Of a stretch of 37,487 bases of DNA, positions 5,617 through 36,800 are shown piece by piece. A program made the position numbers and the translations under genes. The notes below the pieces were generated by a model. The model saw nothing but the letters and a program-made list of their open reading frames with translations. It was not told where the DNA came from and made no database searches. The stretch lies in contig JAJDCD010000008.1 in NCBI GenBank assembly GCA_029261035.1, forward strand, positions 428,480-465,966, written 5' to 3'. Numbering within the stretch: the stretch's first letter is position 1; each line of letters opens with the position of its first letter. The DNA comes from Candidatus Omnitrophota bacterium. Lineage in GTDB: Bacteria; Omnitrophota; Omnitrophia; Omnitrophales; JACROU01.

Positions 5617-5928
5617 CTAAGCGGCTTTCTTCTTTGGCTTATTCAACTCAATTCGAAAGTGAATACCTAAAGCTTTTAACAACATCATCACACTTCCCCA
5701 CTCAGGATTTCCTTTTTTTGACAACATCTTGTATAGACTGACTCTATTTAATTTTGTCTTTCGAGAGAACTTGCTTAAACCACCTTGCGCTTCGATCACA
5801 TTACGCAAAGCAAGAAGAAACAACTTTTCATCCCCTTCCTCTAAAGCTTCGTTTAAATAGGCTTTAGCCTCATGAAGGTCTTTCAGGTCTTGAATTAAAT
5901 CTTCATGATAATCTTTAAATGGTTTCAT
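5617..5928 (-). CDS. Antitoxin of a type II toxin-antitoxin pair (putative addiction module antidote family)
   Basis: The 103-residue protein has the hallmarks of the addiction-module antidote family that pairs with Gp49-like killer proteins: an N-terminal helical region with YLNEALEEGD, then LLALRNVIEAQGGLSKF leading into a helix-turn-helix (KTKLNRVSLYKMLSKKGNP, about residues 57-75) and a short GIHFRIEL tail. It would bind and neutralise the upstream toxin and repress the operon. The ATG follows the toxin stop after one base, with AGGAGAG inside the toxin's last codons as ribosome-binding site, so the two genes are co-translated. The reading frame looks intact. Confidence 0.85.
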   Translation of the reverse strand: MKPFKDYHEDLIQDLKDLHEAKAYLNEALEEGDEKLFLLALRNVIEAQGGLSKFSRKTKLNRVSLYKMLSKKGNPEWGSVMMLLKALGIHFRIELNKPKKKAA

Positions 5929-5929
5929 T

Positions 5930-6256
5930 TTATACTCTCCTCTTAAAATCTTTCCAATACTCTTTAGCCTTTTCTATGTCTTTATTTTGTTGCTTTTTAT
6001 CTCCTCCACATAAGAGGACAACAATCGTTTTTTTGTATTGAGCATAATAAATTCTATACCCTGCACCAAAAAACAACCTTAATTCACAAACCCCACTTCC
6101 AATAGATTTTACATCTCCAAAATGACCTAACTCTAAACGGTCAATTCGCGTTCGAATCCTGGACCTTATTCGAACGTCTTTAATGGATTTAAACCATTTT
6201 CTAAAAGGCACATCCCCATCTACTGCTTGGTATTGGAGTATTTGTACTTCATTCAT
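5930..6256 (-). CDS. RelE/ParE-superfamily toxin (addiction module killer protein, Gp49-like)
   Basis: The 108-residue basic protein has PFRKWFKSIKD near the start, IRTRIDRLELGHFGDVKSIGSGVCELR in the middle and a central GAGYRIYYAQ strand, followed by VVLLCGGDKKQQNKDIEKA. This is the typical layout of Gp49-like/RelE killer proteins, which inhibit growth, usually by mRNA cleavage at the ribosome. The conserved L-R...YR(I/V)YY strand and the GGDK-QxxDI-A tail are intact. It lies just before its antitoxin, the usual order for this subfamily. This is the only toxin-antitoxin pair in the island with both partners undamaged. The ATG at 6256 lacks a clear Shine-Dalgarno sequence. Confidence 0.85.
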   Translation of the reverse strand: MNEVQILQYQAVDGDVPFRKWFKSIKDVRIRSRIRTRIDRLELGHFGDVKSIGSGVCELRLFFGAGYRIYYAQYKKTIVVLLCGGDKKQQNKDIEKAKEYWKDFKRRV

Positions 6257-6784: not shown

Positions 6785-7066
6785 TTATGCAACCAGTTTA
6801 ATCTCCACTTCAACATTTAAAGCGGCTGCAATTTTATCTAACATAGCTACGGTAAAATTATAATTCCCTTCCTCAAGACGAGAAATATTTGATTGTTTAG
6901 TGCTAATTCTTTTAGCTAACTCTGATTGAGTTAAACCTGCTTTTTCACGGGCTCTAAAAATTTGGAAACCTAAATTAAGTTTCTGCTTTTCTTCTTCATA
7001 TCCTTTTTTAAATTGAGGGTCTTTGATTTCTTTACTTAGATATTTTTTAAGACTGTGTTTATTCAT
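6785..7066 (-). CDS. XRE-family antitoxin (HigA-like)
   Basis: The 93-residue protein has an N-terminal helix (SLKKYLSKEIKDPQFKKGYEE) that usually contacts the toxin, then a helix-turn-helix at about residues 38-66 (REKAGLTQSELAKRISTKQ, then SNISRLEEGN), and a VEIKLV end. It is typical of antitoxins paired with RelE/HigB toxins and would both neutralise the toxin and repress the operon. The frame is intact. It starts 15 bp after the end of the frameshifted toxin at 7082-7428, the toxin-first order of such operons. With the toxin broken, it may persist only as a repressor or an anti-addiction remnant (inference). Confidence 0.85.
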   Translation of the reverse strand: MNKHSLKKYLSKEIKDPQFKKGYEEEKQKLNLGFQIFRAREKAGLTQSELAKRISTKQSNISRLEEGNYNFTVAMLDKIAAALNVEVEIKLVA

Positions 7067-7081
7067 TATGTTTACCCTATT

Positions 7082-7428
7082 TTATTTTTTGAAACGCTTA
7101 ACAAAATCAGCCATTCGACTCAATGCTAAATTGATATCTGATTTCTTTAATTTCCAATCTTTTTTTCTAAAAGCATGAAGAAGTACTATTTTCTTTCAAA
7201 AGTAAAAAAATATAGGATTCTAATATTATTACTTGCCATACGAATCCTTAATTCATATAACTTACCTTCTACTTTATCAGCATAAGGTCTTTTAAAAGAA
7301 GCCCCTTTATCTTCTAATAACCCTACCCAAGCTAATACTTTTTGCCTAACTTTAATAGGTGTAGCCTCTATAAATTGTTCAACAGGAGCATTTCCCTTTT
7401 TATCATAATAAAATAAAACCTCATACAT
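7082..7428 (-). pseudogene. RelE/HigB-like toxin, frameshifted
   Basis: From the ATG at 7428 the frame reads VLFYYDKKGNAPVEQFIEA, LYELRIRMASNNIRILYFF and then TFERK-stop at 7186. In the next phase the sequence continues IVLLHAFRKKDWKLKKSDIN and LALSRMADFVKRFKK-stop at 7082, which is exactly the expected C-terminal half of this toxin family (about 115 residues). Restoring one A in the A-run at about 7186-7192 joins the two halves. The catalytic C-terminal part is therefore lost unless the lesion is an assembly error or frameshifting occurs. The intact antitoxin follows at 7066 and an operator-like palindrome precedes the gene. Confidence 0.85.
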
Positions 7429-11591: not shown

Positions 11592-12617
11592 ATGCAAAAA
11601 ATAAAAGCAGGTATTGCATTCCCCAGTGCGGCCTTCGGGCTCAGCCGCAAACAAGTTAAGTTTTTTAAGACCCTTCATAAAACTCCTGAGGTAGGCGATG
11701 TTGTTTATGGCGAAATAGTTCATATTGGTGAGCATTCGAACCTAGAAAACAAGTCTGCAAGAATCCACATGATTCATAACGGCTCAAAGGGAATCTTTGT
11801 ATTTGGGAATCGCTACGCTCCTGATTTTTATGAAGCTCGAATTCCTACAGAACCCGTAGTGGAAGTTGATCTACTCGCACGTTCAGGGATTATCGGCACG
11901 GTCCATTCAAAGAACACGCAAAGGAAAGATCCAACTCGAGTAAAAATTCTAGGGTATGTTCATGATGAACATGGGAATATCGTGAATACAAAAAATCACC
12001 CTGTCTTTACTCCAAAAAAAGAAGCTAAAAAATTTCCACGTGCCAAAATGATTCTCGTTTGCGGAACTGCAATGAACTCTGGAAAAAGTGTCGCTGCAGC
12101 TTCTTGCTGTTGGGCCCTTTCAAATTTGGGATACAGAGTTCGAGGAACAAAAGTTACGGGTACAGCAAGTCTCAAAGACATTCTCCATATGAACGACGCG
12201 GGAGCAGATCATTATGCGGATTTTACCTACTTAGGCTATCCTTCAACTTATTTGCTCGAAGAAGATGAAATGTTGAGCATTTATAATAAACTTGATTTGA
12301 AATATGCTAATAACCCAAAAAATTATTGGATTGTTGAATTTGCAGATGGGATTAACCAAAGAGAGACATCTATGTTGTTGAATCACCCAGAAGTAAGAAA
12401 AAGACTGCATAAGTTCATCTTTTGTTCTTATGACGCTTTTGGTGCTATTGGAGGACTTAGAATCCTAAAGGAAAAGTTCAATCTAACACCCGACGCAATC
12501 TCAGGAGTTTGCTCAAGCTCTCCCCTTCACTTAAAAGAACTTAATGAATTTACAGACATCCCTATTTTTAATAGCTTTGATGCAAATTTAAATCAAATGG
12601 AAAAGCTTCTAATTTAA
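11592..12617 (+). CDS. P-loop NTPase, DUF1611-like
   Basis: The 341-residue protein has a beta-rich N-terminal domain (about 1-145) and a C-terminal P-loop domain with GTAMNSGKS at 158-166, then DILHMNDAGADHYADFTYLG and WIVEFADGINQRET, which look like switch/Walker-B-type segments of DUF1611/DethioBiotin-like NTPases. Some DUF1611 members (DgcN) take part in N-acyl-D-glutamate metabolism; whether this one does is unknown, and the N-terminal domain does not look like the standard one. AAAGGA lies 6 bases before the ATG. It is convergent with the aminopeptidase-like gene, with a 4 bp overlap of the two 3' ends (12614-12617), and divergent from the isoaspartyl peptidase gene. Confidence 0.6.
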   Translation: MQKIKAGIAFPSAAFGLSRKQVKFFKTLHKTPEVGDVVYGEIVHIGEHSNLENKSARIHMIHNGSKGIFVFGNRYAPDFYEARIPTEPVVEVDLLARSGIIGTVHSKNTQRKDPTRVKILGYVHDEHGNIVNTKNHPVFTPKKEAKKFPRAKMILVCGTAMNSGKSVAAASCCWALSNLGYRVRGTKVTGTASLKDILHMNDAGADHYADFTYLGYPSTYLLEEDEMLSIYNKLDLKYANNPKNYWIVEFADGINQRETSMLLNHPEVRKRLHKFIFCSYDAFGAIGGLRILKEKFNLTPDAISGVCSSSPLHLKELNEFTDIPIFNSFDANLNQMEKLLI

Positions 12618-13642
12618 ACACACCATCTTTCATCTTGATAAATATTGTCTCCATCTAAAATCATCGCTTCTGTATCCACAAAAATATCGACATGAAACTT
12701 AGCTGTTTTATTGGTAAATTTAAAATTAGGCTTTTTGTAGACATTGTGCTTTGCACCTAGAGACAAATGAACTCCACACATGCGTTCATAGGTACCAATA
12801 TCCGTAACAATACATTTCTTTGTGAAAGCACGGTTAAGACCAAATCCCAGTTCCCGAACCCAAACTTCTCCATCCTCTCGTTCACGAATACTGACAAGAA
12901 CCTCGTCAAACTCCGGGGTTGAATCTATAGCTTCGGTGACCCTTCCCTCTTTAATTACAAGCGTAATAGGTTTCTTCGGGTTACTCACCTTAAAATGCAT
13001 ATCCCCAAAAGCAAAAATATTGACTCGTCCATTCACAGATTCTAACTCTTTAGACTCTGTAAAAACTTCACCTATAGGAAACTGACCTCCCACATTTCTC
13101 ATACCTGTATAATCTCCTATATTTAACTTGGCAGGTTCAAAACCATCGCTGAATATAAGTTCTTCCCCTCCACTCTTCAATACCCCTAAGCTAGCCCTAT
13201 CAATACGAGCTTGAAGGGCGTATCCAACACCTCGATAATACTTAGCGTCATACGCAAGAGCATCGATATAAACAAGCTGCTCATCTCCCTGAATTCTGAG
13301 AAGATGCGGATGCTCAATAACTTTAATCGATCGGTTAAATAGAGTTACACGAATACGAAATTTATCCAGTCTAAAACTGGTTGATTGGATCAGGACAACA
13401 AGGTCCGAGGGTTTAAGACTTTCAAAATCAGAAAGAATAGACTCTTGGGATACTTCATCAAAATTAACAAATTTTGCTTTAGGAAGACAGCGCTGGTATG
13501 CTTCTGTCAAGACTTGAGACAAAGCGCACTGCGTATCATAAATAACTAAAGCTTTTTGAGAATCTTCAGAATACTCAAAAGATACCGATAGAATATCGGA
13601 TACATGTTTTTCTGCTAAATCAACTTTATCACTGGGTATCAT
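12614..13642 (-). CDS. M29-like metallo-aminopeptidase
   Basis: The 342-residue protein carries PIGEVFTES (Glu192), a typical M29 aminopeptidase element, followed by an Asp/Glu-rich strand pair, RELGFGLNRAF (Glu264), DIGTYERMCGVHLSLGAKH (Glu286, His299) and FHVDIFVD (His317, Asp319). These match the positions of the two-metal ligands in the AmpS/PepS (thermophilic aminopeptidase) family, which removes N-terminal residues from peptides. It is shorter than the ~410 residues usual for M29; the N-terminal domain is reduced. It has a clear AAGGA ribosome-binding site and starts only 23 bp after the decayed RhuM-Fic gene. It may act on peptides released by, or related to, the isoaspartyl peptidase nearby (inference). 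Confidence 0.7.
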   Translation of the reverse strand: MIPSDKVDLAEKHVSDILSVSFEYSEDSQKALVIYDTQCALSQVLTEAYQRCLPKAKFVNFDEVSQESILSDFESLKPSDLVVLIQSTSFRLDKFRIRVTLFNRSIKVIEHPHLLRIQGDEQLVYIDALAYDAKYYRGVGYALQARIDRASLGVLKSGGEELIFSDGFEPAKLNIGDYTGMRNVGGQFPIGEVFTESKELESVNGRVNIFAFGDMHFKVSNPKKPITLVIKEGRVTEAIDSTPEFDEVLVSIREREDGEVWVRELGFGLNRAFTKKCIVTDIGTYERMCGVHLSLGAKHNVYKKPNFKFTNKTAKFHVDIFVDTEAMILDGDNIYQDERWCV

Positions 13643-14733: not shown

Positions 14734-15678
14734 TTAATAATGAGAGCCTTCGTGCCCTTCTCCTGCTTCTGTGTCTGTAACCGAAACTTGCATAGAACGA
14801 GAATCATCTAAATCGCCTGCACCAAGAGCTATAGAATCAGCAGAATCAAAAGCTCCCGAGGTCTTTTGGTCTTTAGCCTTTTCGTCTTCTTTCATTTTCT
14901 TTTGTTCTTCCTTGTAAACTTCACGGCCTAAGCGAGCCGCTTCTCTTTCTAATTTTTTGAGCTTTTCCAAGGATCGAGTCACATCATTCTTAGCTTTTTC
15001 AGCTGCTCTTTTAGCATCATTTGCTTTTTTTCGTGCTTCCTTAGCTTTTTCTTTTTTGTAATCACTACTTGAATCTTTAATTCGACCTTCTTTTTTAGCT
15101 GCTTTTCCATCAAGTTCTTTAGCTGTCTTATCTAACTCATCTGCTTGTTTAACCGCATCATCATGAGATTTTGTATGTTCATTTAATCGATCCACACCAA
15201 CATCATAATCTGCTTCTTTTACAGTTCCCCCATCATCTACTTTCCCTTTAAATACTTTCGCGTCTCTCTTGCCTCTTAAATCTGTTTTCGCTTGCTTCGT
15301 TTTTGTATTTGCATCTTTCCTAGCTGCATTTGCTGTTTTCTTTAATCCATCTACATTGGTTTGTCTTTCGGTAATCTCCTTGGTGATTCTCCCTCTGGTT
15401 TTAGTCCCTTTAGCCCTATCTAATCTTCTTTTAGCAGAATTAAGGTTACTTTCAGCTCTCTTCAGTTTGCCTTCAGCTCTTTTAGCTGTTTTTTGAGCTT
15501 TATCAGCAGCCTTAGATGAAAGCCGACTCGTTTTAGAAGCTGCTTTATAAGCCGCATCGGCACTTGATTGAAGAGGTGTTAGTTCCGCCACAGCTGTATC
15601 ATCTGCTTGAGATAAACCTAAACTACCTAAAATAAAAATAGCACTCACAAATAAATTCAAAAGAATATATTTTTTCAT
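14734..15678 (-). CDS. Secreted Ala/Lys-rich coiled-coil protein
   Basis: The 314-residue protein has a signal peptide (hydrophobic residues 6-23, ending LSQA before DD) and then almost 200 residues of Ala/Lys/Arg/Glu-rich heptad-like helix (SAKRRLDRAKGTKTRGRI, KKLEREAARLGREVYKEEQK). It ends in an acidic, Ser-rich tail with GEGHEGSHY. No enzymatic motif is visible. Its ATG overlaps the ribE stop (ATGA, 15675-15678), so it should be translated with riboflavin synthase, yet it is exported; a link with flavin metabolism is not obvious. Lpp-like or periplasmic structural roles are possible. The AT-rich gap downstream (14641-14733) holds no clear terminator. Confidence 0.75.
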   Translation of the reverse strand: MKKYILLNLFVSAIFILGSLGLSQADDTAVAELTPLQSSADAAYKAASKTSRLSSKAADKAQKTAKRAEGKLKRAESNLNSAKRRLDRAKGTKTRGRITKEITERQTNVDGLKKTANAARKDANTKTKQAKTDLRGKRDAKVFKGKVDDGGTVKEADYDVGVDRLNEHTKSHDDAVKQADELDKTAKELDGKAAKKEGRIKDSSSDYKKEKAKEARKKANDAKRAAEKAKNDVTRSLEKLKKLEREAARLGREVYKEEQKKMKEDEKAKDQKTSGAFDSADSIALGAGDLDDSRSMQVSVTDTEAGEGHEGSHY

Positions 15679-16277
15679 GAACTAGATCTCCCTTGTTGAA
15701 TTACATTACGAACATATTTAGCTAAAATATCAATCTCTATATTTACTCTATTTCCATTTTTCAACCGCCCTAAATTAGTCATCTCTAAAGTATGAGGAAT
15801 AAGAGCAACACAAAAACTAGACTTAGACATGGATTGAACTGTAAGACTAATGCCATTAATGGTAATCGAAGCTCTAGGAATAAGATCTTTCAGAAGTTTT
15901 TTTGGTAACTCAAAATGAAATTCATAGTTTTTCCCTTTTTTAACTTTACGAACTAGCTTAGCAACCCCATCCACATGCCCTTGGACATAATGGCCACCCA
16001 TTCTTCCATTCAATTTCATTGCTCGTTCAAAATTAACAGCATCTCCCACCTTCAAAGATCCTAGAGAAGTAACTTTCATGGTTGCTTCAACAATATCTAC
16101 ATCAATAAACCCTTTACCAAAACCAACCACGGTAAGACAAACACCATTCGTAGAGATACTATCTCCAAGCTTAAGTCCTTTTTGAATAGAATTTACTGCA
16201 AAACGGCAGCACAAAATATCCCCAGACTTCTTTTTGGATTTTAGCTGCCCTGTCGTTTCAATAATTCCTGTGAACAT
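15675..16277 (-). CDS. ribE: Riboflavin synthase, alpha subunit
   Basis: The 200-residue protein starts MFTGIIETTG, the hallmark N-terminus of riboflavin synthase, and consists of two tandem lumazine-binding repeats (about 1-95 and 96-195). GVCLTV and GHYVQGHVDGVAKL are visible in the first and at the junction, and INGISLTV in the second. It dismutates two molecules of 6,7-dimethyl-8-ribityllumazine to riboflavin and is the last step of the pathway supplied by the ribH/ribD/ribBA genes upstream. The ATG follows a palindrome-containing spacer of 49 bp after ribD. The gene ends in an ATGA overlap with the secreted coiled-coil gene. Length and motifs are normal. Confidence 0.95.
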   Translation of the reverse strand: MFTGIIETTGQLKSKKKSGDILCCRFAVNSIQKGLKLGDSISTNGVCLTVVGFGKGFIDVDIVEATMKVTSLGSLKVGDAVNFERAMKLNGRMGGHYVQGHVDGVAKLVRKVKKGKNYEFHFELPKKLLKDLIPRASITINGISLTVQSMSKSSFCVALIPHTLEMTNLGRLKNGNRVNIEIDILAKYVRNVIQQGRSSS

Positions 16278-16326: not shown

Positions 16327-17424
16327 TTACAAATAGGCTTCGATGAGGGTGTCTTGGCCGACTTTATAGTGTTTTATATTATTCAGTTTGATAGCTTGTT
16401 TGGATGATGAAAGCCCTAAGCCTTCTACAGATGTCTTGGTGTTTCTGCCTCCTAAAAAATAAGGGGCTATAAAAAAGTTAATTTTATCCACACACTTTTC
16501 ATTTAAAAGAGAGGCTGATAATTCCCCACCCCCTTCAACCAGTAGAGAAGCTATACCAAATTCATGCAAGGTTTTTAATACTTGTTTCAAGTTGAGGTGT
16601 CCTTGTTTTTCAGTTACGGTAAACACATCTACTTTTCTAAGTTTAGAATAACTCTCTATTTTTTTCTTAGAATGTTTGTTCGAAGTAAAAATAAAATTAA
16701 TAGAATTGGTATCAAATACCTTTAAATTCTTTTTCAGACTTAAAGTTCGATCTAATATAACTCGAGTTGGATTATGAATAAAATGAGACTCTATCAAATA
16801 AGGGGTTAACTTAGGGTTATCGATACGAACCGTATCTGAACCTACAAGCACAGCATCACAGTCTTTTCTTAATTGATGAGACCAAACTTTTGCTTCCTGA
16901 GACGAAATGTTTTCTCTATTATTTCTTGACCCTGTTATTTTACCATCCATACTTTGAGCCATCTTCAACAAGACAAAGGGGCGTTTCTTTAACTGCGATA
17001 TCACAAAAGATTCGTTTTGTTTTTCCACCATCTCACTCAGAACACCACTTTCAACTTTAATTTTTTTTCTAGAAAGAATTCTCCGAGCTTTGTTTTTATG
17101 TGCTGGGTTTGGATCCGTCATACCATAAATAACTTTTTTAATTCCTGATCTGATTATTTGTTCTGTGCATGGAGGAGTCTTACCTTCTGTAGAACAGGGC
17201 TCTAAGCTAATATAAAGAGTCGCTCCCTTAGCACGCTTACCTGCTTTTTTTAAAGCCATTGCCTCAGCATGGGCTCCGCCATAAAAAGCATGATAACCAC
17301 TAGCCACAAGCTTCTTGTTCTTCACAACGCAAGCCCCGACTAAAGGATTGGGAGAAACAAAACCTCTTCCTTTTTCAGCCAACTCAATACATTTAGACAT
17401 CCAATATAAATGTTCTTTATTCAT
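16327..17424 (-). CDS. ribD: Bifunctional diaminohydroxyphosphoribosylaminopyrimidine deaminase / 5-amino-6-(5-phosphoribosylamino)uracil reductase
   Basis: From the ATG at 17424 the product has 365 residues. The N-terminal deaminase domain shows HAEAMAL (His52, catalytic Glu54) and EPCSTEGKTPPC (Cys77, Cys86), the zinc ligands. The C-terminal reductase domain (from about residue 150) has KMAQSMDGKITGS and AVLVGSDTVRIDNPKLTPY. It catalyses the second and third steps of riboflavin synthesis. A longer frame from 17457 exists, but it overlaps nusB by 32 bp and adds 11 polar residues; the start at 17424, one base beyond the nusB stop, matches family N-termini and suggests coupling. No clear Shine-Dalgarno sequence is seen for either. 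Confidence 0.93.
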   Translation of the reverse strand: MNKEHLYWMSKCIELAEKGRGFVSPNPLVGACVVKNKKLVASGYHAFYGGAHAEAMALKKAGKRAKGATLYISLEPCSTEGKTPPCTEQIIRSGIKKVIYGMTDPNPAHKNKARRILSRKKIKVESGVLSEMVEKQNESFVISQLKKRPFVLLKMAQSMDGKITGSRNNRENISSQEAKVWSHQLRKDCDAVLVGSDTVRIDNPKLTPYLIESHFIHNPTRVILDRTLSLKKNLKVFDTNSINFIFTSNKHSKKKIESYSKLRKVDVFTVTEKQGHLNLKQVLKTLHEFGIASLLVEGGGELSASLLNEKCVDKINFFIAPYFLGGRNTKTSVEGLGLSSSKQAIKLNNIKHYKVGQDTLIEAYL

Positions 17425-17425
17425 G

Positions 17426-17851
17426 TTATTGTTTGTTTTTGGGTAGGGACTCCGCATGTGAAATTTTGTCTAAAATACCATTCACAAATTTACCAGAATC
17501 TTCTTGGGAGAATTTTTTAGCTAAATTAACAGCCTCATTAATTGTTACTTTGACAGGAATATCCTCGCAATAAATGAGTTCAAATGTAGCCATACGTAAA
17601 ATATTACGGTCAATAATTGCCATACGTGCAGGGTTCCAATTCTGAGCATAAGATTGAACCATTGCATCGATATCCGTTAAATGCTCTAACGTTCCAAGAA
17701 CTAATTGTGTTGCAAACTCTTTAGAATCATCTTCTGTATTATTCTGCTGCCAAAAGGATTCCAAGACTTCTTCTGCAACATCCTCTTTCAAAATGATTTG
17801 ATAAAGAACCTGAACTGCATACTCTCTGGATTGAGTTCGTTTTCGCTGCAT
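17426..17851 (-). CDS. nusB: Transcription antitermination factor NusB
   Basis: The 141-residue all-helical protein reads RTQSREYAVQVLYQIILKED at the start, then QLVLGTLEHLTDIDAMVQSY, NWNPARMAIIDRNILRMATFE, and PVKVTINEAVNLAKKFSQED, with SGKFVNGILDKI near the end: all classic NusB segments. NusB binds boxA RNA with S10 (NusE) and supports rRNA antitermination. Placement after ribH is very common in bacteria. The ATG lies 2 bases after the ribH stop, with AAGGT as a modest ribosome-binding site, so the gene is probably coupled to ribH. Confidence 0.95.
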   Translation of the reverse strand: MQRKRTQSREYAVQVLYQIILKEDVAEEVLESFWQQNNTEDDSKEFATQLVLGTLEHLTDIDAMVQSYAQNWNPARMAIIDRNILRMATFELIYCEDIPVKVTINEAVNLAKKFSQEDSGKFVNGILDKISHAESLPKNKQ

Positions 17852-17853
17852 AA

Positions 17854-18318
17854 TTAAACCTTGGATTTCTTTCTGTTTCGTGAAGTGCTTTTAATATTTT
17901 GCTGAATTTCAAACATTTTTAATAAAGTCTCTGCTGCTTCTTCCCCTTTATTACCCAACTTACCACCTGCTCGATTAAGAGCCTGCTTTTCTGTATCTGT
18001 TGTTAATACACCAAAAGCTATTGGAACCCCTGTGGCTAATTGTAAATCCATAATGCCGTTTGTAACTCCCTGACAAATAAAATCATAATGATCTGTCTCA
18101 CCCCGAATAACGGCACCTAAAGCAATAACTCCATCCGCTTTCTTGTTTTTGATAAGCTCACTTGCCGCAAATGGGATCTCAAAGGCTCCCGGCACCTTCA
18201 CAATACTTATATTCTTCTGGGGTGTACCTGAATACATCAAAAAACTAATCGCACCATCACAAAGTTTTGATGTGACTTCTTCATTAAATTCAGAAACTAC
18301 AATCCCAATTTTAGTCAT
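17854..18318 (-). CDS. ribH: 6,7-dimethyl-8-ribityllumazine synthase
   Basis: From the ATG at 18318 the product is 154 residues: MTKIGIVVSEFNEEVTSKL, VPGAFEIPFAA, GALAVIRGETDHYDF-like motif (ALGAVIRGETDHYDF) and PIAFGVLTTDTEKQAL, all diagnostic of lumazine synthase. It condenses the ribD product with the ribB product and forms large shells. The frame is open upstream to another ATG at 18357, adding 13 residues (MNVTVTDQLLILK). That extension is coded by the palindrome-containing spacer and has no counterpart in the family, so the shorter start is preferred, although neither has a good Shine-Dalgarno sequence. The tail (TSRNRKKSKV) is basic. Confidence 0.93.
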   Translation of the reverse strand: MTKIGIVVSEFNEEVTSKLCDGAISFLMYSGTPQKNISIVKVPGAFEIPFAASELIKNKKADGVIALGAVIRGETDHYDFICQGVTNGIMDLQLATGVPIAFGVLTTDTEKQALNRAGGKLGNKGEEAAETLLKMFEIQQNIKSTSRNRKKSKV

Positions 18319-18340
18319 TTTTAATATTAAAAGTTGGTCC

Positions 18341-18385
18341 GTGACAGTCACATTCATCGGTCTTTAAATTCCGGGTGACAGCCAC
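18341..18385. repeat. Direct repeat of an imperfect palindrome in the ribBA-ribH spacer
   Basis: The plus strand has GTGACAGTCAC (18341-18351, palindromic apart from its centre base) and GTGACAGCCAC (18375-18385), 34 bases apart. They lie across the first of the two possible ribH starts. They could be an operator, an RNA structure or part of a dispersed repeat. No FMN riboswitch consensus was recognised here. Confidence 0.4.
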
Positions 18386-18431: not shown

Positions 18432-19595
18432 CTACAATAAATTCTCTGTTCTACTTTCTTGATCTAACAAAGATACTCTTTCAACAACTTCTAAGCCATG
18501 ACCTTCTAGCCCTATAATTTTTCTTGGGTTATTTGTAACCAATTTTATTTTTTTAACACCTAAATTTCTTAAAATTTCAGCACCCATTCCATATTCGCGT
18601 AAATCGCTGTTAATACCCAATTTTTGATTCGCTTCTTCAGCATCTAATCCTTGGTTTTGAAGATCGTAGGATTTTACTTTATTTGCCAAACTTAAGTCAC
18701 GTCCTTCTGGCCTAAGGTAAAGCAAAACACCTCTTTCTTCTTTTTCAATCATATGAACTGCTGGGTGCAACAAATCTTTGTGTCCAGGTTTTAAGGACCC
18801 AAGAACATCTTTAACAAAGCATTCTGCGTGGACACGAACCAAAATAGGATCATCCGTTACTTCTCCTTTAATCATAGCAACATGATCATTCCCGTCCACT
18901 AAGGAACGAAATACTTTCAGCTGCCACTTTCCATTCTGAGTCGAAAATTCCGATTCGGCTACTTGATTCACTAACCGATCAAACTTTCTACGGTACTCAA
19001 TTAAAGATTTAATCGTTCCAATTTTAAGTTGATGCTCTTTTGCAAAATTCATTAACTCAGGTGTGCGCATCATGGTTCCATCAGAATCCATGATTTCACA
19101 AATTACGGATGTTGGGGAAAAACCTGCCAATCGAGAAAGATCCACTCCTGCTTCAGTATGTCCTGCTCGAGTTAAAACACCCCCATTTTTTGCTTTTAAT
19201 GGAAATACATGTCCTGGAGAAACAATATCGCGGTAATCTCTTTTTAAGTCTGCCAAGACCTCTATGGTATGTGCGCGATCATAAGCAGAAATACCTGTAG
19301 TAACGCCAATTTTGGCATCTACAGACAAAGTAAATGCAGTTCGATAGACATCATCTGAATTACCGTCTACCATATCTCTAAGACCTAATGCCATAGATCT
19401 CTCTTCTGCCATAGGAACACAAATCAACCCTTTTCCATACTGAGCCATGAAGTTAACTTTTTCTGGGGTAACACACTCTGCTGCAAAAATGAGATCCCCT
19501 TCGTTTTCACGAGACTCATCATCCGTCATGATTACCATTTTACCTTGACGAACATCTTCAATAATATCTTCTATAGAATCAAACTTGATAGACAT
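18432..19595 (-). CDS. ribBA: RibBA-type fusion: DHBP synthase with a degenerate GTP cyclohydrolase II domain
   Basis: The 387-residue protein has an intact N-terminal 3,4-dihydroxy-2-butanone-4-phosphate synthase domain: [10 protein letters not shown] (25-34), [12 protein letters not shown] (84-95) and [16 protein letters not shown] (143-158). The C-terminal part (about 225-387) aligns with GTP cyclohydrolase II ([30 protein letters not shown]). However, the zinc motif normally SLRCDCG is SLKPGHK (267-273); only Cys259 of the three cysteines remains. RPEGRDLSL replaces RQEGRGIGL, and the usual C-terminal NxxYLxTKxxKxGH is absent. RibB activity is expected and RibA activity is doubtful. AGAGGA precedes the ATG at 19595. 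Confidence 0.9.
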
Positions 19596-24821: not shown

Positions 24822-27800
24822 TTATTCAAACGTCCAACCTGCATTACCTCCTAAATTAGATACATTACTACCTGCCGTAATAGCATTGCCTACATTCTGA
24901 CTTTCCGACACTTTCAGATTTGATGTTGTCGTTGCTCCCTGAACATCTAATTCCCAAGCAACTCCTCCAAAGTTAGAAATAAGTGACAACGTATTACCTA
25001 CTCCACCCTGAAAAGTAAGCGCTCCCAAAATCGTCTGCCTGGATCCTCCGCCAAACCTTAATGTATCCGCTGTTATAGTAGTTTTAGTAAAATTAAAGAA
25101 AGTTGTCGTTCCTAGAATTTTTTGACCTTGACCATCTAGAACAACGGTTCCAGAATTATGAGTAAAGGTTCCGCCCGTGCGAACAAAGTCTCCTGCTACA
25201 TTCAACTGGCCTGAAGGTGCTGTGAAAGTTCCTCCAGACTGCGTAAAACCTCCGTCTATATCAAGAGAACCAGCAGCTCCTGAAAATACCCCTGCAATCA
25301 ATTCAAAGTCAGAAGAGAATGTTGTGGTTCCAGAACTTGGGCCAACAAGGGTTACGTTAGCCGCATTAAGAACAACTTTTGGTAATGTTCCTCCAGATGC
25401 TAAATTTATCACTCTGGTTCCTGTACCAATAATATTAATTGTGACACTTCCACCATCAAAATTACTGTTATGTGTTAGCCCCCCAGACAATTCAATCACC
25501 GACCGTCCTACAAAACCATCCAACAAAGATAAGTTACCTAGAACAATCACTTTGTTAGAGCCCGACAATCCCAAATTAATTCCTACGCTCTGAGCAATAA
25601 TTAAGTTATTAAACGTAATATCATTATCTGCAACAATACTGGCTACCGCTCCATCAAAGTTAACAGTACCGTTATTAGCATCAAAGACCACACCTGTAAT
25701 AAAAGTGAGTTTACCTTCTAAAAATAAAGTTCCTGAAGGAGCTGTGAAGGTTCCTGAATTCAAACTCATGTCACCATCCACATCTAAATTACCATCTCCC
25801 CCTACAAATAAACCATCATCTAAATTAAAGTTTCCAACTACCGTAGTGGTTCCAGATGTTGGACCATTTACAGTAACATTAGCAGCATTTATTGTAATGT
25901 TTGGTAGTTTTCCTCCACCCGTTGTTAAATCAATGCTTCTTGTTGCCGTACCTGTAACTGTAATATTTCCAACATTTGTAGAATCAGCTCCATCAAAGCC
26001 TGTTCCCAAACTAATAGTATCTTTAACATCTACAATTCCATCCCCGCCCAATTCTCCATCTGTAAGAGTCAACGTTCCATCGACTTGCAACGTATCTCCA
26101 GAACTAATATCTAAAGTCTTTCCATCCGTTTTATTCAAAGTTAAATTGTTGAGCGTCAACAACGTTTGAACATCTACTGTTGAGTTTTCTCCATCAAAAG
26201 CAAGTGTTCCACTATTATGATTAAAGACCCCGCCAGAAACAGTAAATCCATTTTCAACAGACAGGGTACTTGAAGTAGATGTAAATGTTCCTCCACTTAA
26301 ACTAAAGAAAGAGTTCACATCTAGAGCTCCACTTCCACCATTAAACGTTCCCCCACTTTGAACAAAACCTTGATCATCAAACGTCAGGTTAACAGTTCCT
26401 TGGTCTACTTCACCAGCTTGTAAGTCAAAGAACTCTTCAAACGTAACCGTACCTGCTCCTGCAGTTGCTAAGGTTACATTGGCTGCATTTAATACAACGT
26501 GAGGTAAATTTCCTCCACCATTCAAAGTGATTGTTCTTGTAGCTGCTCCTGTAATTTCTATTAAACCGCTACCACCATCAGCTCCAGTATTTAAAGTCAT
26601 CCCATTAGTGACATTAATCGTTCCGCCACTGTCTGTAATTCGACCATTACTAAATACAAAGGTTCCATTAACGTTCAGAGTATCTCCGTTTGCTACCGTA
26701 AATGATTTTTGATCTACTTTATCAATTGTTAAATTATTAAATGTTTCTGAAGTAGGAACATCGGCTGTACTATTTCCTGGAGATCTAAATACAACAGTAC
26801 CTCCATTAGGGTCAAAGGTTCCACCTGTTCGCGTGTAATTGGTTCCAATGTATAAATTTCCTGTTGGCGCTGTTAAGGTTCCACTACTAACCAATATATC
26901 AAAACTGGTAGAAACATCGCCTCCTTGTCCGGTTAACGTTCCTCCGTTAATCGTCAATCCATTATTAAAAGTTTGAAGTTGAGTACTTGCTAAGTAGTTC
27001 CCTCCACTCAATGTACTTCTAAGCAGAACAAAGAACTGATTTCCATTTGCGTCAAACGTTCCATTGGTCAAATCAAACGTTCCAAGTAAATTCTTTTTAC
27101 CATCTAAGTTAAAAGTATCTAAAGCATCGATAGGGCTAATCAGTAAATGTTTAAAATCAATTGTTCCAAAATCATGAATCGTATAGTTGTCTGCTAAAGT
27201 GTCTCCATCACCTACATAAAGGAATGTTCCAGAGTTCCTATCTTGAGTTAATCCTGTAATAGTTTCATCTCCAACGAGACGAACTGTCCCGTCATTAGAG
27301 AATGTTGCTCCTGTCATCGTCCAATCTTGCCCATTAAGATCTAACACACCTGCATTGAGGTTGAAAGCGGTGGTAACTGTTAACGTATTACTGGTTAATT
27401 GCAAAGTCGCAGCACCTGAATGTGTAATAGTAGCAAAGCTACTGCTTCCACTATTGAATGTCTGAGTCCCTGTAGTTTGATTAAAAATCAAAGTAGAAGT
27501 TCCTGCATTAAACGTGCCTGAATTTGCAAAGTTACCTGCAACCGTCAGCGTATTGGAGATAGCATTAAAGACAGCTGAGGATTGAATAACTAAGTTACCA
27601 CCACTTCCTTGAGTCGTTACATCGCCTCCTGGTGCATAAGTCTTACCTGAACTTACAATAACTTGAATTCCTGTATTAACAGTTAAGTCGCCACCAGAAA
27701 CAGAATATGGAATATCTGTATCACTCAAAGCTCCCTTAGCTGTATTTAAACTTGCATTTGTAATTGGGCCAGCACTAGCATTATGCAAGGTTAATGTACT

Positions 27801-30800
27801 GCCTAAGATACTAAATCCCGTAATATCTGTATCTGCATCTAAACTAATGGTAGAAAAGGCTCCATCAACAGCATTATCATTAATATAAACTAGAACATCA
27901 TCATTTGCAGTTGCTGTTGTTGCTAAACTAAAAGCCCCTGTTACACCGTCTGTAGTCGTTGAACCTTCAACAACTCCATTAATAACAAAAGTGATTGTCG
28001 CACTCGTTAATGGAGTAACACCCGCATCACTATAAGCAATACCACTGATAGTAACGCCAAACCAAAGTATTGTATTTCCTGAATCCACACTATTAGCAGG
28101 TAGAATTGCAGGTCCTGTTAAATTAACACCATCTTTAACATCCACCAAACTAATCGTTCTTGTTCCCTGAGGATCAACATTCCATTGATTTCCATCTGAA
28201 GAGCTTCTCAACAATAAACGGTTAGAAGCATCAAAGCCTTGCAACGTAGTAGTCCCTATAATTGTTTGTGTTGTTCCAACCCCAATAGTAAGAGTTCTAT
28301 CTCCTTCAGCTTGAACTCCTGTAACAGTCTTAGTCAAATTATTAAATGTACTTGACCCAAGAATTTGTTGTCCCAAACCATCAAGAACAACCGTTCCGCT
28401 ATTATGGGTGAATGTTCCAGAATTTGAGTAGTCACCAGCAATAGTAAAGGAGCTTGTAGCTGGGGCCGTAAATGAAGCCCCTACATTAATTGTAAAGTTT
28501 CCATTAACATCAATTACTGTATCTGATGAATTCAGAACAACTGCACCTGAATTCAATGTGTAATTATTTAATGTAATTGTATTACTTGGAGAATATTGGC
28601 CTGTGCCAATTGTTAAGTTAAATGGATCAACACCACCAACGATTTGAGAAAGAGTTGTTGTTCCTGTTCCTGAAATTAATGTTAATGTTTCAGCAACTCC
28701 ACCAGCTGTTCCATTAACAATTCCAGAAATTGAAATATTTCCAGCTACACCAGAACCTGTATTGAGGGTAACACTCAAACCTTCTCCGATAACAACACTA
28801 TCGCTAATAGTAATATCTTCTCCACTAGTGACAATATCTGCATTTAAGGTTGTTGTGGCTCCAGGACCATCAAGAGTTACTGAACCATTACCTGTTATTT
28901 GTCCATTAACAGTAATGCTTCCAGCACCTGCGGGAGAACGAATTGTAACATCATCATCAAAAGTTACAGCGTTAACCGTAACAGCTGCTGTTCCATCACT
29001 TCTACCAATTGTAATAGAACTAAAACCATCCGCTATTGCAGCAATATCTGCTACAGAAACATCTAACGTTCCAGCACCACCAGCAACACCAATGGTTGTT
29101 GCTGCTGTAGAAGGTTGTAAGACAAGTGTTCCTGTTCCAGAAACAGAATCAGCACCACCCGTAAAATCAACTCCATCAGCTGTAAGGGTTAATCCATTAG
29201 CTCCTACCGCTACTGTACTACTAAAGGTAACCGCATTAACTCCTGAAGTTATAATAGCATCACTATTTAATGTCACACCTCCAGCAAATAAAAATTTTGT
29301 TAAGGCATTCAGTGTTCCAGAAGGTCCAATATTTAATATCACTGGATTAGTTAAACCTAACGCTACTGTATTATCGGTTATGTTATGTGTTGAAGAACCT
29401 GTAACCGTAATAGATGCTGTTCCTCCTTCATAAGCAGCCCCAACAATCATTGTTCCCTGCGCTTCAATCGTTCCTGGACCATTGGCTATTCCTGTATTTA
29501 ATAATAATTCATTGGTTACAATAATATTATCTCCTACAGAAATATCTATCATATCTCCAGCACCTTTATCAAACTCTAAGTCATACAAAGTTAGGGTTCC
29601 AGGGACATCAAAAATAGAATCTCCACCAATAAAATCATCAAAATCTACTTGCCCTAAGTTAGCTAAGAAAGTTCCTGCCGTCATTATAAAATCACCATTA
29701 AGCTGTAATTCTCCACCATTTAAATCAAAGCTTCCGCCATTTAAATTAAAATCATCTAAGACTTCTAACAAACTACCATTAGCATCTAAAGTTCCATCAT
29801 TCATAATAAGGTCACTTTGGAATAAGACCCAACCCCCATTAGAATCAAAAGAGCCGCCATTCTGTGTATAGTTATTATTTATTTCTATTCGAGTAGCCGT
29901 AGCTGCAGATTGGAAGAAGAAAGTTCCAGAGGTAAGTGTTAACGCTCCATTTAAATTAAAGTACTGTGATGCTCCAGTGGTAATTGCATTAACTGTCCCC
30001 GCACCTACATTGATAACCAAATCTCCATCAAAAGATTCTCCTTCATCAAAGGTGAAAGAATGTGTTGTTGCTCCGGTCACTGTTAAATCAGCACTTCCAC
30101 CATCAAAGCCAGAGGTAACCAAAACATCCCCTTGCGCTTCCATCGCTCCAGGACCATCAACAGCACCAGAACCTAATTCTAATAAATTTGCAGATATCAA
30201 TGTATCACCAGCTGAAATTGTTATTGTAAAACCATCGTTTGCGTCTAATTCTAAATTATAAAATGTTTCTGTTGTTGCTACATCAATAGCTAAATTAGAA
30301 GCTCCACCAATATCAACGTTACTGGTATCAGGATTAAAAGTAGCAAGCGGACCAATTGTAAAGCTATTACCTTCAATAAATATTTCATTCGTACCGGCAT
30401 TCAAAGTTCCTCCTGTTTGAGAAAAAGGACCTCTCACTTCTAGGTTAGAACTAAAACCATTATACGTACCACCTGTCATGCTAAATGTATCAATAATAAG
30501 TGTTTGCGTTCCATCACTATTAAACGTACCATTATTAATCGTTAAATCATCCGATTCAAATTCTCCGGCTCCTCCACCTAAATCTATCTGACCATTATTT
30601 AAAGTAACCAAACCAAAATTTAAATAGAACCCTGCATTAACATCAATAACACCACCACTCATAGTTAATCCTAATGACGTGTTAACTTCTCCTCCATTAA
30701 CATCAAGAGTTCCTCCTGTGATCACGGCAGCTCCTGTGTGAATAATATCACCACCATTAACATCAAAGGTTCCACCATTAATCGTCCACGTTCCAGCAAT

Positions 30801-33800
30801 ATCAAAATTATCTCCACTAGGTCCTGTTTGGAAGAAAACTGTTCCTGAATCTAATGTAAAATCACCACTAAAATCAAACCCTAGATCAGCGCCTGTTCCT
30901 ACCATATTGAGTGTTCCAGCACCAATATCAACAATGAAATCATTTGAAATAGCTCTAGAGTTACTAACCGTAAATGTATGAACACTTGCTCCTGAAATAG
31001 TTACTAGAGCATTTCCTCCATCATAAGAATCCGAAACAGAAAGGTCTCCCGTAACCGTTAAACCTCCTGGCCCATCGAACCCACCATCATCCAAGTTTAG
31101 AGTTCCATTCACTCTCATGGTGTTATTGAGTTCTATAGATGTTAATTCATCATCATCAACAGGATTTAACGTTACATCGTTAAAATCTTGCGTAACAACT
31201 ATGGAGCTATTTTCATCATTGAAGAAAATGTCAGGAGAGCTTGCAGACGAAGGAAAAAAGTTTACTAAACCAGTTAATGCATTAAAGGTTGCTGTAGAGT
31301 TCTTTCTAAAATGATAACGCGCAATAAGCGTTCCATCCGCATTAAATGTTCCGCCAAATAATTTAAAGTCATCCTTAACATCAATCGTTCCACCATTTAA
31401 GTTTGTAATACCACCATTACTGATATAGTCATCATCGGTTGTGATACTACCTCCAACACCTACAGTAACTGTTCCAGAATCAATGATAAAGTCCTCATCT
31501 CCTCCGGTTACTGTAACCGTTCCTCCATTAACATTAAAGGTAGCTCCATCCACTTGAATAAACCAATCACTATCTAGGGTAGTCCCCGCAAGATCCCAGG
31601 TTCCTCCATCAAGACGCATTTCATCATCAACATTAATAACTGTTCCTGTTCCTCCATTAATATTTCCTGATGTAGAATCAAAATCATCTCCTACAGTAAC
31701 AGTCGCATTGGTTCCTGTATTAAACGTTCCTCCACTAATCAAAATATCTTCTGTCGTGGTCAAATCTCCACCATTTAAATTAAAAATTCCACCGCTAATT
31801 TCAACAGAAATATCCGTCCCTGGAGCATTCTGAGCATCTAAAAGTCCTCCACCCCCAGAGTAGGTTCCTCCTGTTTGGTTATACACTTGAAGTTCAATGT
31901 TGTTAGCTCCTGGATTTAAGGTACCACTGATAAGATTTAATTGATCTAATGGAGTTGTTGCTCCTACATTGCCACTTAAATTAATATTTCCTGAAGTACC
32001 AGCTCGAAGCGATAAATCTTCTGTATAAGCTGTTGTTCCATCTATCGTTCCTTCAAATATAATATTTGCACCACTTGCAGAAGCTCCTCCATTTGTTGTG
32101 TCTAGAAGCACATCTGCTCCAAGGACTACTGCATCGCTAAAAGTAATTATGTTTCCAACGGTTACCACATCAGCGTTCAATGTTGTTGTTGCTCCTGGAC
32201 CATCTAAAGTAATAGATGCATTATCAGCACCTGTTATCTGACCATTAACCACAATAGATCCACCTGATTGTGGAGATTGGATTGTAACAGGATCATTAAA
32301 CGTAACCGCATTTACTGTAATCGCTCCTGTTCCATCACTACGACCCATTGTAATACCACTAAAGCCGTTAGCTAAAGCTGCAACATCTACAGTTGAAAGA
32401 GCCAAAGTTCCTGCTGCTCCAGCAATCCCAATCGATGTACCTGAAGCTGCTGGTTGTAAGAGTAAAGTTCCAGTACCAGAAACTGTTCCAGCTCCTCCAG
32501 TAAAATCAATGCCATTTGCCGTAATTGTTAACGCATTGGATCCAAGTGTAAGGTTATCAGCAAAGGTAAGAGAATTAGTTCCAGCATTAAATGCTGTTGG
32601 ATTACTATTCGTCACTGTTCCATCAAATTGAACATTATCATTAAATGTAATTGAACTAGCTACACCTGTGAAGTTAACATTATTAAAATTAGAACTATTT
32701 ACCGTAATATTAATTGGATCTGCGTCGCTAAACACAAATGTTCCTGAAGAACTAAAAGCTCCTCCAGTTGCATCAAAAATGTCTCCAGCAACAGTTAACT
32801 GATTTGCTGCCATATTCAATGTTCCATTAATATCAAGATCTTCTGTACTGACAGTTCCTCCTGGAGTAAAAGTCTTTCCTGAACTAATAATTAAGTTTAT
32901 TCCAGAATTTAGAGATAAATCCCCTCCACTCACAGAATAAATAATATCGGTGTCTACCTGAGCTCCTTTAGCGGTGTTTAACAATACATTAGTTACAGGC
33001 CCTGCATTTTCGTGTGTTAAGGTTAAGCTATTAGCTGTGATAGAAAGACCTGTAATACTCGTTGCTCCAGAAGCAATCGTAAGCACATTTCCTAATGTGG
33101 TTCCATTATCATCAATATAGATTAATATATTATTTCCGTTTGAAATAGAAACACCTGCAAATGTAAAGGCTCCTGAACCACCTGCCGTAGTAGTTGTTCC
33201 TTCATTTGAACCATCAATAATCAAAACTAACGTCGTGCCATCAACAACACCTGTGGCAACACCTGAAATATCAGCTCCAAACCAAAGCACATTATTTCCT
33301 GAATCAGTACTATTTGCTGGAGAAATAGAAGGGGATGATAAATTGACACTATCTTTAACATCCACAAAACTAACTGCTCTCGTTCCCTGAGGATCGATAC
33401 TCCATTGGTTTCCATCACTACTACTTCTTAATGACAATAATTGACCACTAGCTCCTTGAAACGTCAATGTTCCTGTTACCGTAACTGTTCTTCCAACTGT
33501 AAATGTTAAAGTATCTGCAGTTGCAACGGTTTTAGATAAATCATTAAACGTAGTTCCAGCCACTGCTACAGAAATTGTTTGTGATGTTCCTACTAAATTA
33601 ACTATTCCTGTTCCAGCATTAAACGTTCCTCCACTGTGTAAAAAGTCTCCAGACAAGTTCAATGTGGATGAATCCATATTAACCACACCACCTTGAATAT
33701 CCCAATCTCCGGCTTCTGTGATAGTTCCGCTTCCAGCATTAAACGTTCCACTAGTGAAAGTGGTTGTGTTGGCTGTCATGGCAAGATCACCACCCGCTGT

Positions 33801-36800
33801 AAACGTTCCTCCATTTTGAATGTAAGATGCTGTAGTTAGCGTATTTGCTGATGATGTTGCAACACCTGCTGCTATAGTTAGTGTTCCAGCTATGGTATGT
33901 TGATCAAAATCAAATTGGTCATTGCTGTCAGTTGGATTAATAGTGATATTAAAGTAATCCGTAGCTCCGATTTCATGTATTGAATACGTATCAGCTAAAG
34001 AATCTCCATCTCCAACATACTCCCATATACCAGAGTTAACATCATTTCCATTAGGTAACGCAATTGTTGTTTCAGACCCAATAAGTCTTAGTGTTCCACT
34101 ATTAGAGAAATCTCCAGCACCGGATAAAATTAGATTTTGGCCATTAAGAGCTAAGACTCCCAAAGTTATTGTTAAATCTCTTCCGCTTGCTAATGAAATA
34201 GCTCCCGTGGGTGTCAGTTGATTTCCTGATTTGTCTACTTCTAAGTTCGCTGAAAAAGTTCCAGAAGTAATTGTATAGGTTTGAGCTGCTGCACCAGAAA
34301 ACTCAAGTGTCAAATTAGCACTTCCTAAGGTGATAGCACCCGAACCTGTAGGTCCTAATTCAAAATCGCCATCCACTGTTATTTTTCTTGCAGATGCATC
34401 TGCGACAACAGAACCTGTAATAGCTCCACTAGCTGTTCTTACAATTAAGTTTCCAGCTACCGTCATATCACCTGTTAAAGTATGCGTTCCATTAGAACTG
34501 ATATTAAAGGTGACATCATTGAATGTTGCTCCATCAGCATCAATTGAATGAGTACCTCCGTTAAAGACCATTGTTCCACCATTATGATTAAACGTAGCGC
34601 CTGCTCCTATATTTGAGAACTGAACCAGCCCTGAAACAGTCGTTGTTCCAGTTGAAGCATTAAACACTCCCCCTGAGAATGCGAAAGTAGATGCTCCGAT
34701 ATTCATCGCACCACTTCCCCCATTAAAGGTTCCTCCGCTTTGGTTATAAAGCACGGGTGAAAAATCAAAGCCGTTCAAATTGAAAATTCCATTGGAAACA
34801 GCAAAAGTAAAACTAGTCGTTATAAAGTTCGATGCTAAATCAACCGTCTCGTTTGCATCATTTAAGCTCATTCGTGCTGCAAAAGTTCCACTGCCTTGCG
34901 TAATTGTATGCGTTGTGTCTCCAGTAAATTTAAGGTTAAAATTGGTACCACTTAAAGTAATCGCACCTGAACCTGCAGGTCCCATTTCAAAATTTCCTTG
35001 AATGCTGACTATACGAGTTGTTCCATCGGCAGTCACTGTTCCATTGACACCACCAGCAGATGTTCTAAAAAGTATATTCCCTCCAACCGTCATACTTCCT
35101 GCCAGTGTAATAACATGGCCGTTAACACTACCATTAAAGGTGACATCATTAAAGGTAGCGCCCCCTGGATTAACCGTACTTGTTCCTCCCGTAAATACAA
35201 AGGTTCCTCCATTATGATTAAACGTGGCTCCTGCTCCGATGTTAGAGAATGTAGTTGCTCCTACAACGCTGGTTGTTCCTGATGGGGCAGTAAACGTTCC
35301 TCCAGAAAGGGTCCATGATCCTGGAACTGTCATATTTCCACTACCCCCATTAAACACACCACCCGTTTGATTGTAAATTGCAGGATTAAAATCAAAACCA
35401 TTGGCATTAAAGGTTCCATTAGAAATCGTGACTGTAAAACTATTGGTGGTAAAATTAGTAGCAAGATTAATGACTTCGTTGGCATTATTAATACTTAATC
35501 GACCTAAGAAGGTTCCACTGGTTTGCGTGATGGTGTGAGTCGTATCTCCTTCAAAGTTCATTTGAAGGTTATTGTCTCCAATGGTGATTGGTCCTGAACC
35601 CACAGGTCCTAATTCAAAGTTTCCTTCCATTCTAAGGAAACGGTTCGTGCTATCCGCATTAACCGTTCCTGTAATTCCACCACTAGCGGTTCTAACAATT
35701 AAGTTACCACCAACTCTCATATCTCCTGTCAGTGTATGAACAGCACCGTTAGTCGTAATATTAAACGTTACATCATTAAACGTAGCTCCTCCTGGATTAA
35801 TGTTATGCGTCGTTCCATCAAAAATAAAGGTTCCTCCATTGGCATCAAATGTGGCACCCGCACCGATGTTGGACATGGCTACGGTGGAAGCAACATTTGT
35901 TGTTCCGCTTGTAGCCGTATAATCTCCTCCTGATAGAGTAAAGCTAAAATTAAAATCATGCGTTCCACTACCACCATTAAATGTTCCATTACTAAGAGTA
36001 ACAGCTCCTCCAACAGTCATGTTTGAAGCTCCAGCATTCAATGTTCCACCACTTTGATTGTAAATGGCTGGATTAAAATCGAAACCATTGGTATTTAAAA
36101 TTCCGTTTGAAACACTAAAGGTGAAGCTGATGCCTGTAAAGTTAGAAGCAAGATTAACGGTTTCGTTAGCATCATTAATGTTCATGCGGCCGCTAAATGT
36201 GCCGCTAGTTTGTGTGATCGTGTGGGTGGTATCTCCAATAAATTTAAAGTTTAAGTTGGTGTTACCAACGGTGATTGCTCCGCTTCCAACAGGACCCATC
36301 TCAAAATTTCCTTCAATAGAAATAATACGACTGGAACCATCGGCAATAACAGATCCGTTGACTCCACCTGAGGATGTTCTGAAGAGCAAATCACCTTCAA
36401 CCGTCATACTTCCAGCTACAGTAATGACATGACCATTAACACTACCATTAAAGGTTACATCATCAAACGTCGCTCCACCTGGATTAACTGTATGTGTTCC
36501 ACCATCGAAAACTACGGTTCCACTATTATGTGTAAAGGTAGCACTTCCACCAATATTTGAGAAAGTGGTTGTTCCGGCGATGCTCGTAGTACCGCTGGTT
36601 GCCGTATAGTTTCCTCCGGAGAATGTGAAGCTGTTATTGTAATCATGGGTACCACTTCCGCCGTTAAAGGTTCCACTAGCCTGACTGTAAACGCCATCTA
36701 AAATCAAATTATGGGTGCTCATATTTACGGTACCTCTAACATCTAAGTTGCCTCCAGTCACATTTCCACCCGGCGTAAAAATGTGACTGGTAGGAACCAA

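Follow-up and report, generated by a model that had tools for sequence, protein, structure and literature searches.

The rib operon and its RibBA protein

The window, which is the whole stretch of 37,487 nucleotides analysed here, carries riboflavin genes in the order rluD, ribBA, ribH, nusB, ribD, ribE, and the same order is found in the nearest relative (genome G001). The features of the operon and of its ribBA gene are as follows.

18432-19595, minus strand: ribBA (start 19595, stop 18432), 387 amino acids, with an intact RibB half and a decayed GTP cyclohydrolase II (GCHII, RibA) half
18981-19595, minus strand: RibB (DHBP synthase) half, residues 1-205, conserved (PF00926, E 7.6e-83; TIGR00506 above cut-off)
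18435-18980, minus strand: RibA-like half, residues 206-387 (TIGR00505, ribA, below the curated cut-off)
18777-18797, minus strand: former zinc motif, residues 267-273, SLKPGHK in place of SLRCDCG (alignment)
18687-18713, minus strand: residues 295-303, RPEGRDLSL in place of RQEGRGIGL (alignment)
18471-18605, minus strand: residues 331-375 ([12 protein letters not shown]...[21 protein letters not shown]), still conserved throughout the set of seven decayed proteins (alignment; dN below that of the catalytic stretch)
17854-18357, minus strand: ribH, lumazine synthase, intact (profile matches)
17426-17851, minus strand: nusB, member of the rib operon (Pfam match, gene order)
16327-17457, minus strand: ribD, full length with deaminase and reductase, intact (profile matches)
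15675-16277, minus strand: ribE, riboflavin synthase, intact (profile matches)

Pfam places DHBP_synthase at residues 9-201 of RibBA and GTP_cyclohydro2 at residues 211-374. The two halves fare differently against the curated profiles: the RibB half scores 247.6 bits against TIGR00506 and passes the cut-off of 177.45, and the RibA half scores 160.5 bits against TIGR00505 and fails that of 205.85. An Rfam scan of the window at the gathering threshold yielded no FMN riboswitch and no match to any other family.

Several other constructs in the window deserve mention. Two convergent protein genes with overlapping ends (11592-12617, plus strand; 12614-13642, minus strand) match nothing in Pfam or NCBIfam at E 0.001, and the product of the first contains a P-loop-like stretch, GTAMNSGKS. 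An open frame of 4221 or more amino acids, repetitive and rich in G/T/N repeats (24822-37487, minus strand), exits the window and probably represents a surface or secreted protein. Two small gene pairs (5617-6256 and 6785-7428, minus strand) resemble, by their sequence, toxin-antitoxin modules, each with a putative helix-turn-helix antitoxin and a RelE/HigB-like partner.

Residue losses in the RibA half

The RibA half was aligned to E. coli GCHII. The zinc cysteines of the E. coli enzyme, at positions 54, 65 and 67, match the aligned sequence; Cys54 is kept, Cys65 is replaced by Pro and Cys67 by His, so that two of the three are lost. The remaining E. coli site residues, as given by the family annotation, are Gln70, the EGR triplet (92-94), Tyr105, Thr114, Asp126, Arg128, Thr149 and Lys154. 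Two of these are altered in the window protein, Gln70 to Leu and Thr114 to Ala, and the equivalents of the EGR triplet, Tyr105, Asp126, Arg128, Thr149 and Lys154 are retained. The NxxYLxTKxxKxGH tail, found in canonical relatives, is missing. The preliminary description, made from the letters of the window, had pointed to both motif replacements, to the lost tail and to a fully conserved RibB half, and the alignments and profile scores bear it out on each; it named no strand, and the gene proves to be on the minus strand. Among 64 canonical RibBAs compared (61 from Omnitrophota), all 64 keep the three zinc cysteines and the EGR triplet. A sequencing error in the zinc-motif codons was considered and ruled out, as there are many in-frame changes and a similar loss is present in six independent lineages. 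On this alignment the RibA half of the window protein would be catalytically inactive.

Parallel decay across Omnitrophota

Is the window protein a solitary case? Two sets of genomes were surveyed, 47 of the order and 384 Omnitrophota genomes of the phylum. Seven decayed RibBAs are present among the 384. Within the order, genomes G006 and G038, besides the source genome of the window (G000), have one low-scoring RibA half each, and sequences of quite another kind occupy the places of their zinc motifs and GTP loops. In the rest of the phylum, G195, G311 and G378 (family f38) and G358 (family f33) are decayed likewise. Low RibA scores in G125, G240, G260, G313, G328 and G372, and also in G041 and G045, were traced to truncation at contig edges and are not decay.

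In a tree of the RibB half only, built without rows for proteobacterial RibBX, the seven decayed proteins fall at six places. The window protein stands beside the canonical protein of G001 (support 100/97) and that of G195 beside G311. Six positions, and well-supported branches that demand at least five changes, indicate that the RibA catalytic site has decayed repeatedly in Omnitrophota. The same tree holds, inside Omnitrophota, three RibBAs (loci L053, L054 and L055) of metagenome-assembled genomes labelled Syntrophorhabdus and Verrucomicrobia; this placement represents either a transfer or a binning error.

Constraint on the decayed half was followed by comparing dN by region, the dN/dS ratios being mostly saturated. 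When a pair includes decayed proteins, dN of the former active-site stretch exceeds that of the RibB half by a factor of 1.7 to 7; among canonical pairs, most show a value for this stretch close to or below the RibB figure. Residues 331-375 remain constrained, while the catalytic stretch evolves fast. The RibA half is thus neither a working GCHII nor simple debris, and it probably has a role in folding, dimer formation or regulation, like that suggested for RibBX. An AlphaFold model from a five-sequence input (pLDDT 51) was set aside.

Could the RibA half still act as a GTP cyclohydrolase, either without zinc or with other ligands such as Cys259 and His272? The window protein offers the best case for this, as the mildest of the seven, with its EGR, Tyr105, Asp126 and Arg128 equivalents in place. 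The other six, however, have lost differing sets of residues, the EGR triplet and Tyr105 among them, and share no new ligand pattern; the C-terminal tail is missing, the pocket evolves rapidly, and GCHII activity is lacking in RibBX proteins with comparable losses (PMC10012899). Retained activity is therefore regarded as highly improbable.

GTP cyclohydrolases in the source genome

The genome that contains the window is 2.7 Mb in size and 94.8% complete. A six-frame search of it with PF00925 matches the window gene only, and no match was found in it to FolE (GTP cyclohydrolase I) or, in a search confined to this genome, to the archaeal GTP cyclohydrolase III family. The single other GTP cyclohydrolase found is of the FolE2 type (GCYH-IB; contig C4, 222597-223433), which scores 236.1 bits against NCBIfam NF010200 and passes the cut-off of 215. 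That its contig is a binning contaminant is ruled out by base and tetranucleotide composition like those of the window (GC 0.367 vs 0.374 in the gene-dense part of the window; tetranucleotide r 0.985). The preliminary description had reasoned that the organism would need another GTP cyclohydrolase for riboflavin; this need is supported by the lack of a second ribA, GTP cyclohydrolase III or FolE in the genome, and the one enzyme that the genome does offer tracks the decay phylum-wide, as set out below.

An intact ribA might sit in the unassembled part of each genome. All are drafts, 82-95% complete, and the proteobacterial RibBX species do have a separate ribA (PMC10012899). Such an explanation would require that all six genomes miss the gene, for which the product of the missing fractions is about 1e-7 if gaps are random, and no canonical relative carries a second ribA. 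An overlooked ribA is accordingly very unlikely. Nor does a broken pathway, with riboflavin or an intermediate taken up and the rib genes persisting as relics, carry much conviction. It would account for the lack of a recognisable GCHII, but RibB, RibH, RibD and RibE are full-length and high-scoring and lie in a conserved operon, also in the other decayed lineages, and we give this explanation hardly any credence.

Gain of FolE2 and loss of FolE

Within the order, GCHY-1/FolE2 (PF02649) is present in 3 of the 47 genomes, and these are exactly the decayed ones (G000, G006 and G038). Counted by genome, FolE2 occurs in 3/3 decayed and in 0/37 others with RibBA (p about 1e-4). In the phylum, full-length FolE2 was found in 6 of 384 genomes, all six with a decayed RibA. 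FolE shows the reverse distribution: it is missing in all seven genomes with decayed RibA, present in 14/15 other genomes of one test set, and at or above the family cut-off in 42/45 non-decayed genomes of a second set, the remainder being a few drafts. Almost all relatives have intact RibA and FolE and are without FolE2. The exception to the link with FolE2 is G358, 76% complete, where RibA is decayed and neither FolE nor FolE2 was found. When the count is reduced to independent contrasts, FolE2 and decay go together in four or five out of five and none runs the other way, a number of pairs too small for a sign test to reach 0.05. The association of RibA decay with FolE2 is strong; its biochemical meaning we infer.

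Short, distant GCHY-1 homologues in G161, G255, G305 and G373 (loci L109-L112) were set aside; they coexist with intact RibA and FolE. Those aligned (G161 and G305) are without the CPC and AHxQRS motifs, and the group probably does something else.

FolE2 proteins and their neighbourhood

Known FolE2 (GTP cyclohydrolase IB) serves folate under zinc shortage (PMC5007448). The Omnitrophota enzymes are like it in passing the NCBIfam FolE2 cut-off (both of the two proteins scanned) and in the CPC, AHxQRS and ESLHxH motifs, which all six retain; they differ in that the gene coincides with loss of RibA function and adjoins a NUDIX gene. Identity among the six is 52-82%, and to plasmid-borne proteobacterial FolE2 about 28-37%. 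HPPK, a folate enzyme, is kept in all, and FolE2 must therefore still feed folate.

The NUDIX gene adjoins folE2 in four of the six genomes (G000, G195, G311 and G378). In the source genome folE2 overlaps the preceding NUDIX gene by 4 bases, a case of translational coupling, and in the other three a homologous NUDIX gene lies directly before folE2. The genes dcd, sufE, lgt and hemB recur near folE2 in these same three, not every gene in each genome. The folE2 locus of G038 is without an adjoining NUDIX gene and that of G006 lies at a contig end. In relatives that bear FolE, the folE locus is elsewhere and no NUDIX gene adjoins it in the short stretches read. The NUDIX protein is nearest to MutT/MTH1-type purine triphosphatases, a likeness in keeping with an enzyme that would trim a ring-opened guanosine triphosphate.

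The ribD gene is also affected. In G006, G195, G311 and G358 the RibD of the rib operon is a reductase domain alone (loci L032:3099-3791, L105:3800-4486, L106:4263-4943 and L107:2465-3178), and a separate gene for a RibD-type deaminase shares a gene run with folE2 in G195 and G378 only. Full RibD is kept by G000, G038 and the canonical f38 and f33 relatives. The first riboflavin steps have thus been rearranged in several FolE2 genomes.

Two further genes were observed in these regions. In each of the three f38 genomes a gene of about 376-398 amino acids immediately precedes the NUDIX-folE2 pair (L101:177-1304, L102:8065-9258, L103:7954-9111), and its copy in G378 has no Pfam or NCBIfam match. 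A PHP-domain-like gene is situated between nusB and ribD in families f29, f31, f33, f38 and f40 (L113-L126); it was considered as a replacement enzyme in f38 and f33 and rejected, as relatives whose RibA is intact have it too.

A possible takeover by FolE2

How might riboflavin synthesis begin in these bacteria? Opening of the GTP imidazole ring is common to GCHI-type and GCHII-type enzymes. We favour, by a slim balance, a reading in which the RibA half is an inactive appendage, like RibX, to a working RibB, and in which an acquired FolE2 took over the opening of GTP for riboflavin and also replaced FolE. FolE2 would open and deformylate the GTP imidazole ring. One share of the ring-opened triphosphate would proceed to dihydroneopterin triphosphate for folate, and the neighbouring NUDIX hydrolase, or another pyrophosphatase, would cut the remainder back to the 5'-monophosphate, giving the substrate of RibD. 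Riboflavin would then be completed by RibD, RibB, RibH and RibE. The broader proposal, that FolE2 and NUDIX, with a detached RibD deaminase in some genomes, form an alternative riboflavin entry shared with folate that has repeatedly displaced GCHII in Omnitrophota, is put forward tentatively, at a little under even credence.

Several points count against a takeover. FolE2 enzymes make dihydroneopterin triphosphate, and the Omnitrophota ones keep the usual motifs. In species such as B. subtilis RibA is kept alongside FolE2. To these are added the continuing need of FolE2 for folate, the G038 locus with no NUDIX gene adjoining folE2, the position of G006 folE2 at a contig end, the decayed G358 in which no FolE2 was found, and the sign test, which with five contrasts cannot reach 0.05.

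A different explanation is that FolE2 replaced FolE for folate only, and that an unrecognised second cyclohydrolase, co-acquired perhaps as part of a zinc-saving set, performs the GTP step of riboflavin synthesis; an unseen enzyme travelling with FolE2 would yield an identical pattern. FolE2 is a known zinc-independent substitute for the zinc-dependent FolE (PMC2770081, PMC5007448), and RibA is a zinc enzyme as well. A Pantoea plasmid carries folE2 together with zinc-independent paralogues, and hemB, thrS and hisI are found in the vicinity of certain folE2 genes of Omnitrophota. In the source genome, however, the searches brought up no further known GTP cyclohydrolase family, neither a Zur nor a COG0523 gene was observed next to folE2, and zinc is not generally avoided: a DksA/TraR-type gene in the window keeps its C4 finger and RibD its deaminase zinc motif. 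We judge this explanation rather unlikely, though it is the foremost rival to a takeover.

Comparison with known systems

The window protein shares with bifunctional RibBA, such as that of M. tuberculosis (4i14), the two-domain layout, the operon place and the overall sequence, and differs in that the GCHII catalytic site is lost. The preliminary description had cited RibBX-type proteins as precedent, and RibBX is indeed the nearest known parallel in design and in its presumed evolutionary route. As to the state of the RibA half the comparison holds, since both have a working RibB and a RibA-like domain stripped of the residues for zinc binding and ring opening (PMC10012899). As to family membership it does not: the Omnitrophota proteins nest among ordinary local RibBAs, out of which they arose on their own, and decayed independently, and their score against RibBA 4i14 (142 bits) is far above that against 6mnz (50 bits), a solved protein of RibBX-like layout. 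These comparisons do not point to common descent with proteobacterial RibBX. RibBX of Shewanella, Aeromonas and Bradyrhizobium is thought to have arisen once another GTP cyclohydrolase relieved selection (PMC10012899). Another difference is that RibBX species carry a separate, intact ribA (PMC10012899), and the source genome of the window has one PF00925 match.

The takeover by FolE2 can be set beside a second known case. In Chlamydia, RibA (with TrpF) replaces FolE, so that one GTP cyclohydrolase supplies two pathways. The Omnitrophota case would be its mirror image: there RibA would cover folate, and here FolE2 would cover riboflavin.

Annotation pipelines still label decayed RibBAs as bifunctional. 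GTP cyclohydrolase II is held to be the step through which bacteria must enter vitamin B2 synthesis; that the RibA site was lost repeatedly where FolE2 was gained and FolE lost points to another route into the riboflavin pathway. If a takeover did occur, one GTP cyclohydrolase would serve two vitamins in these bacteria.
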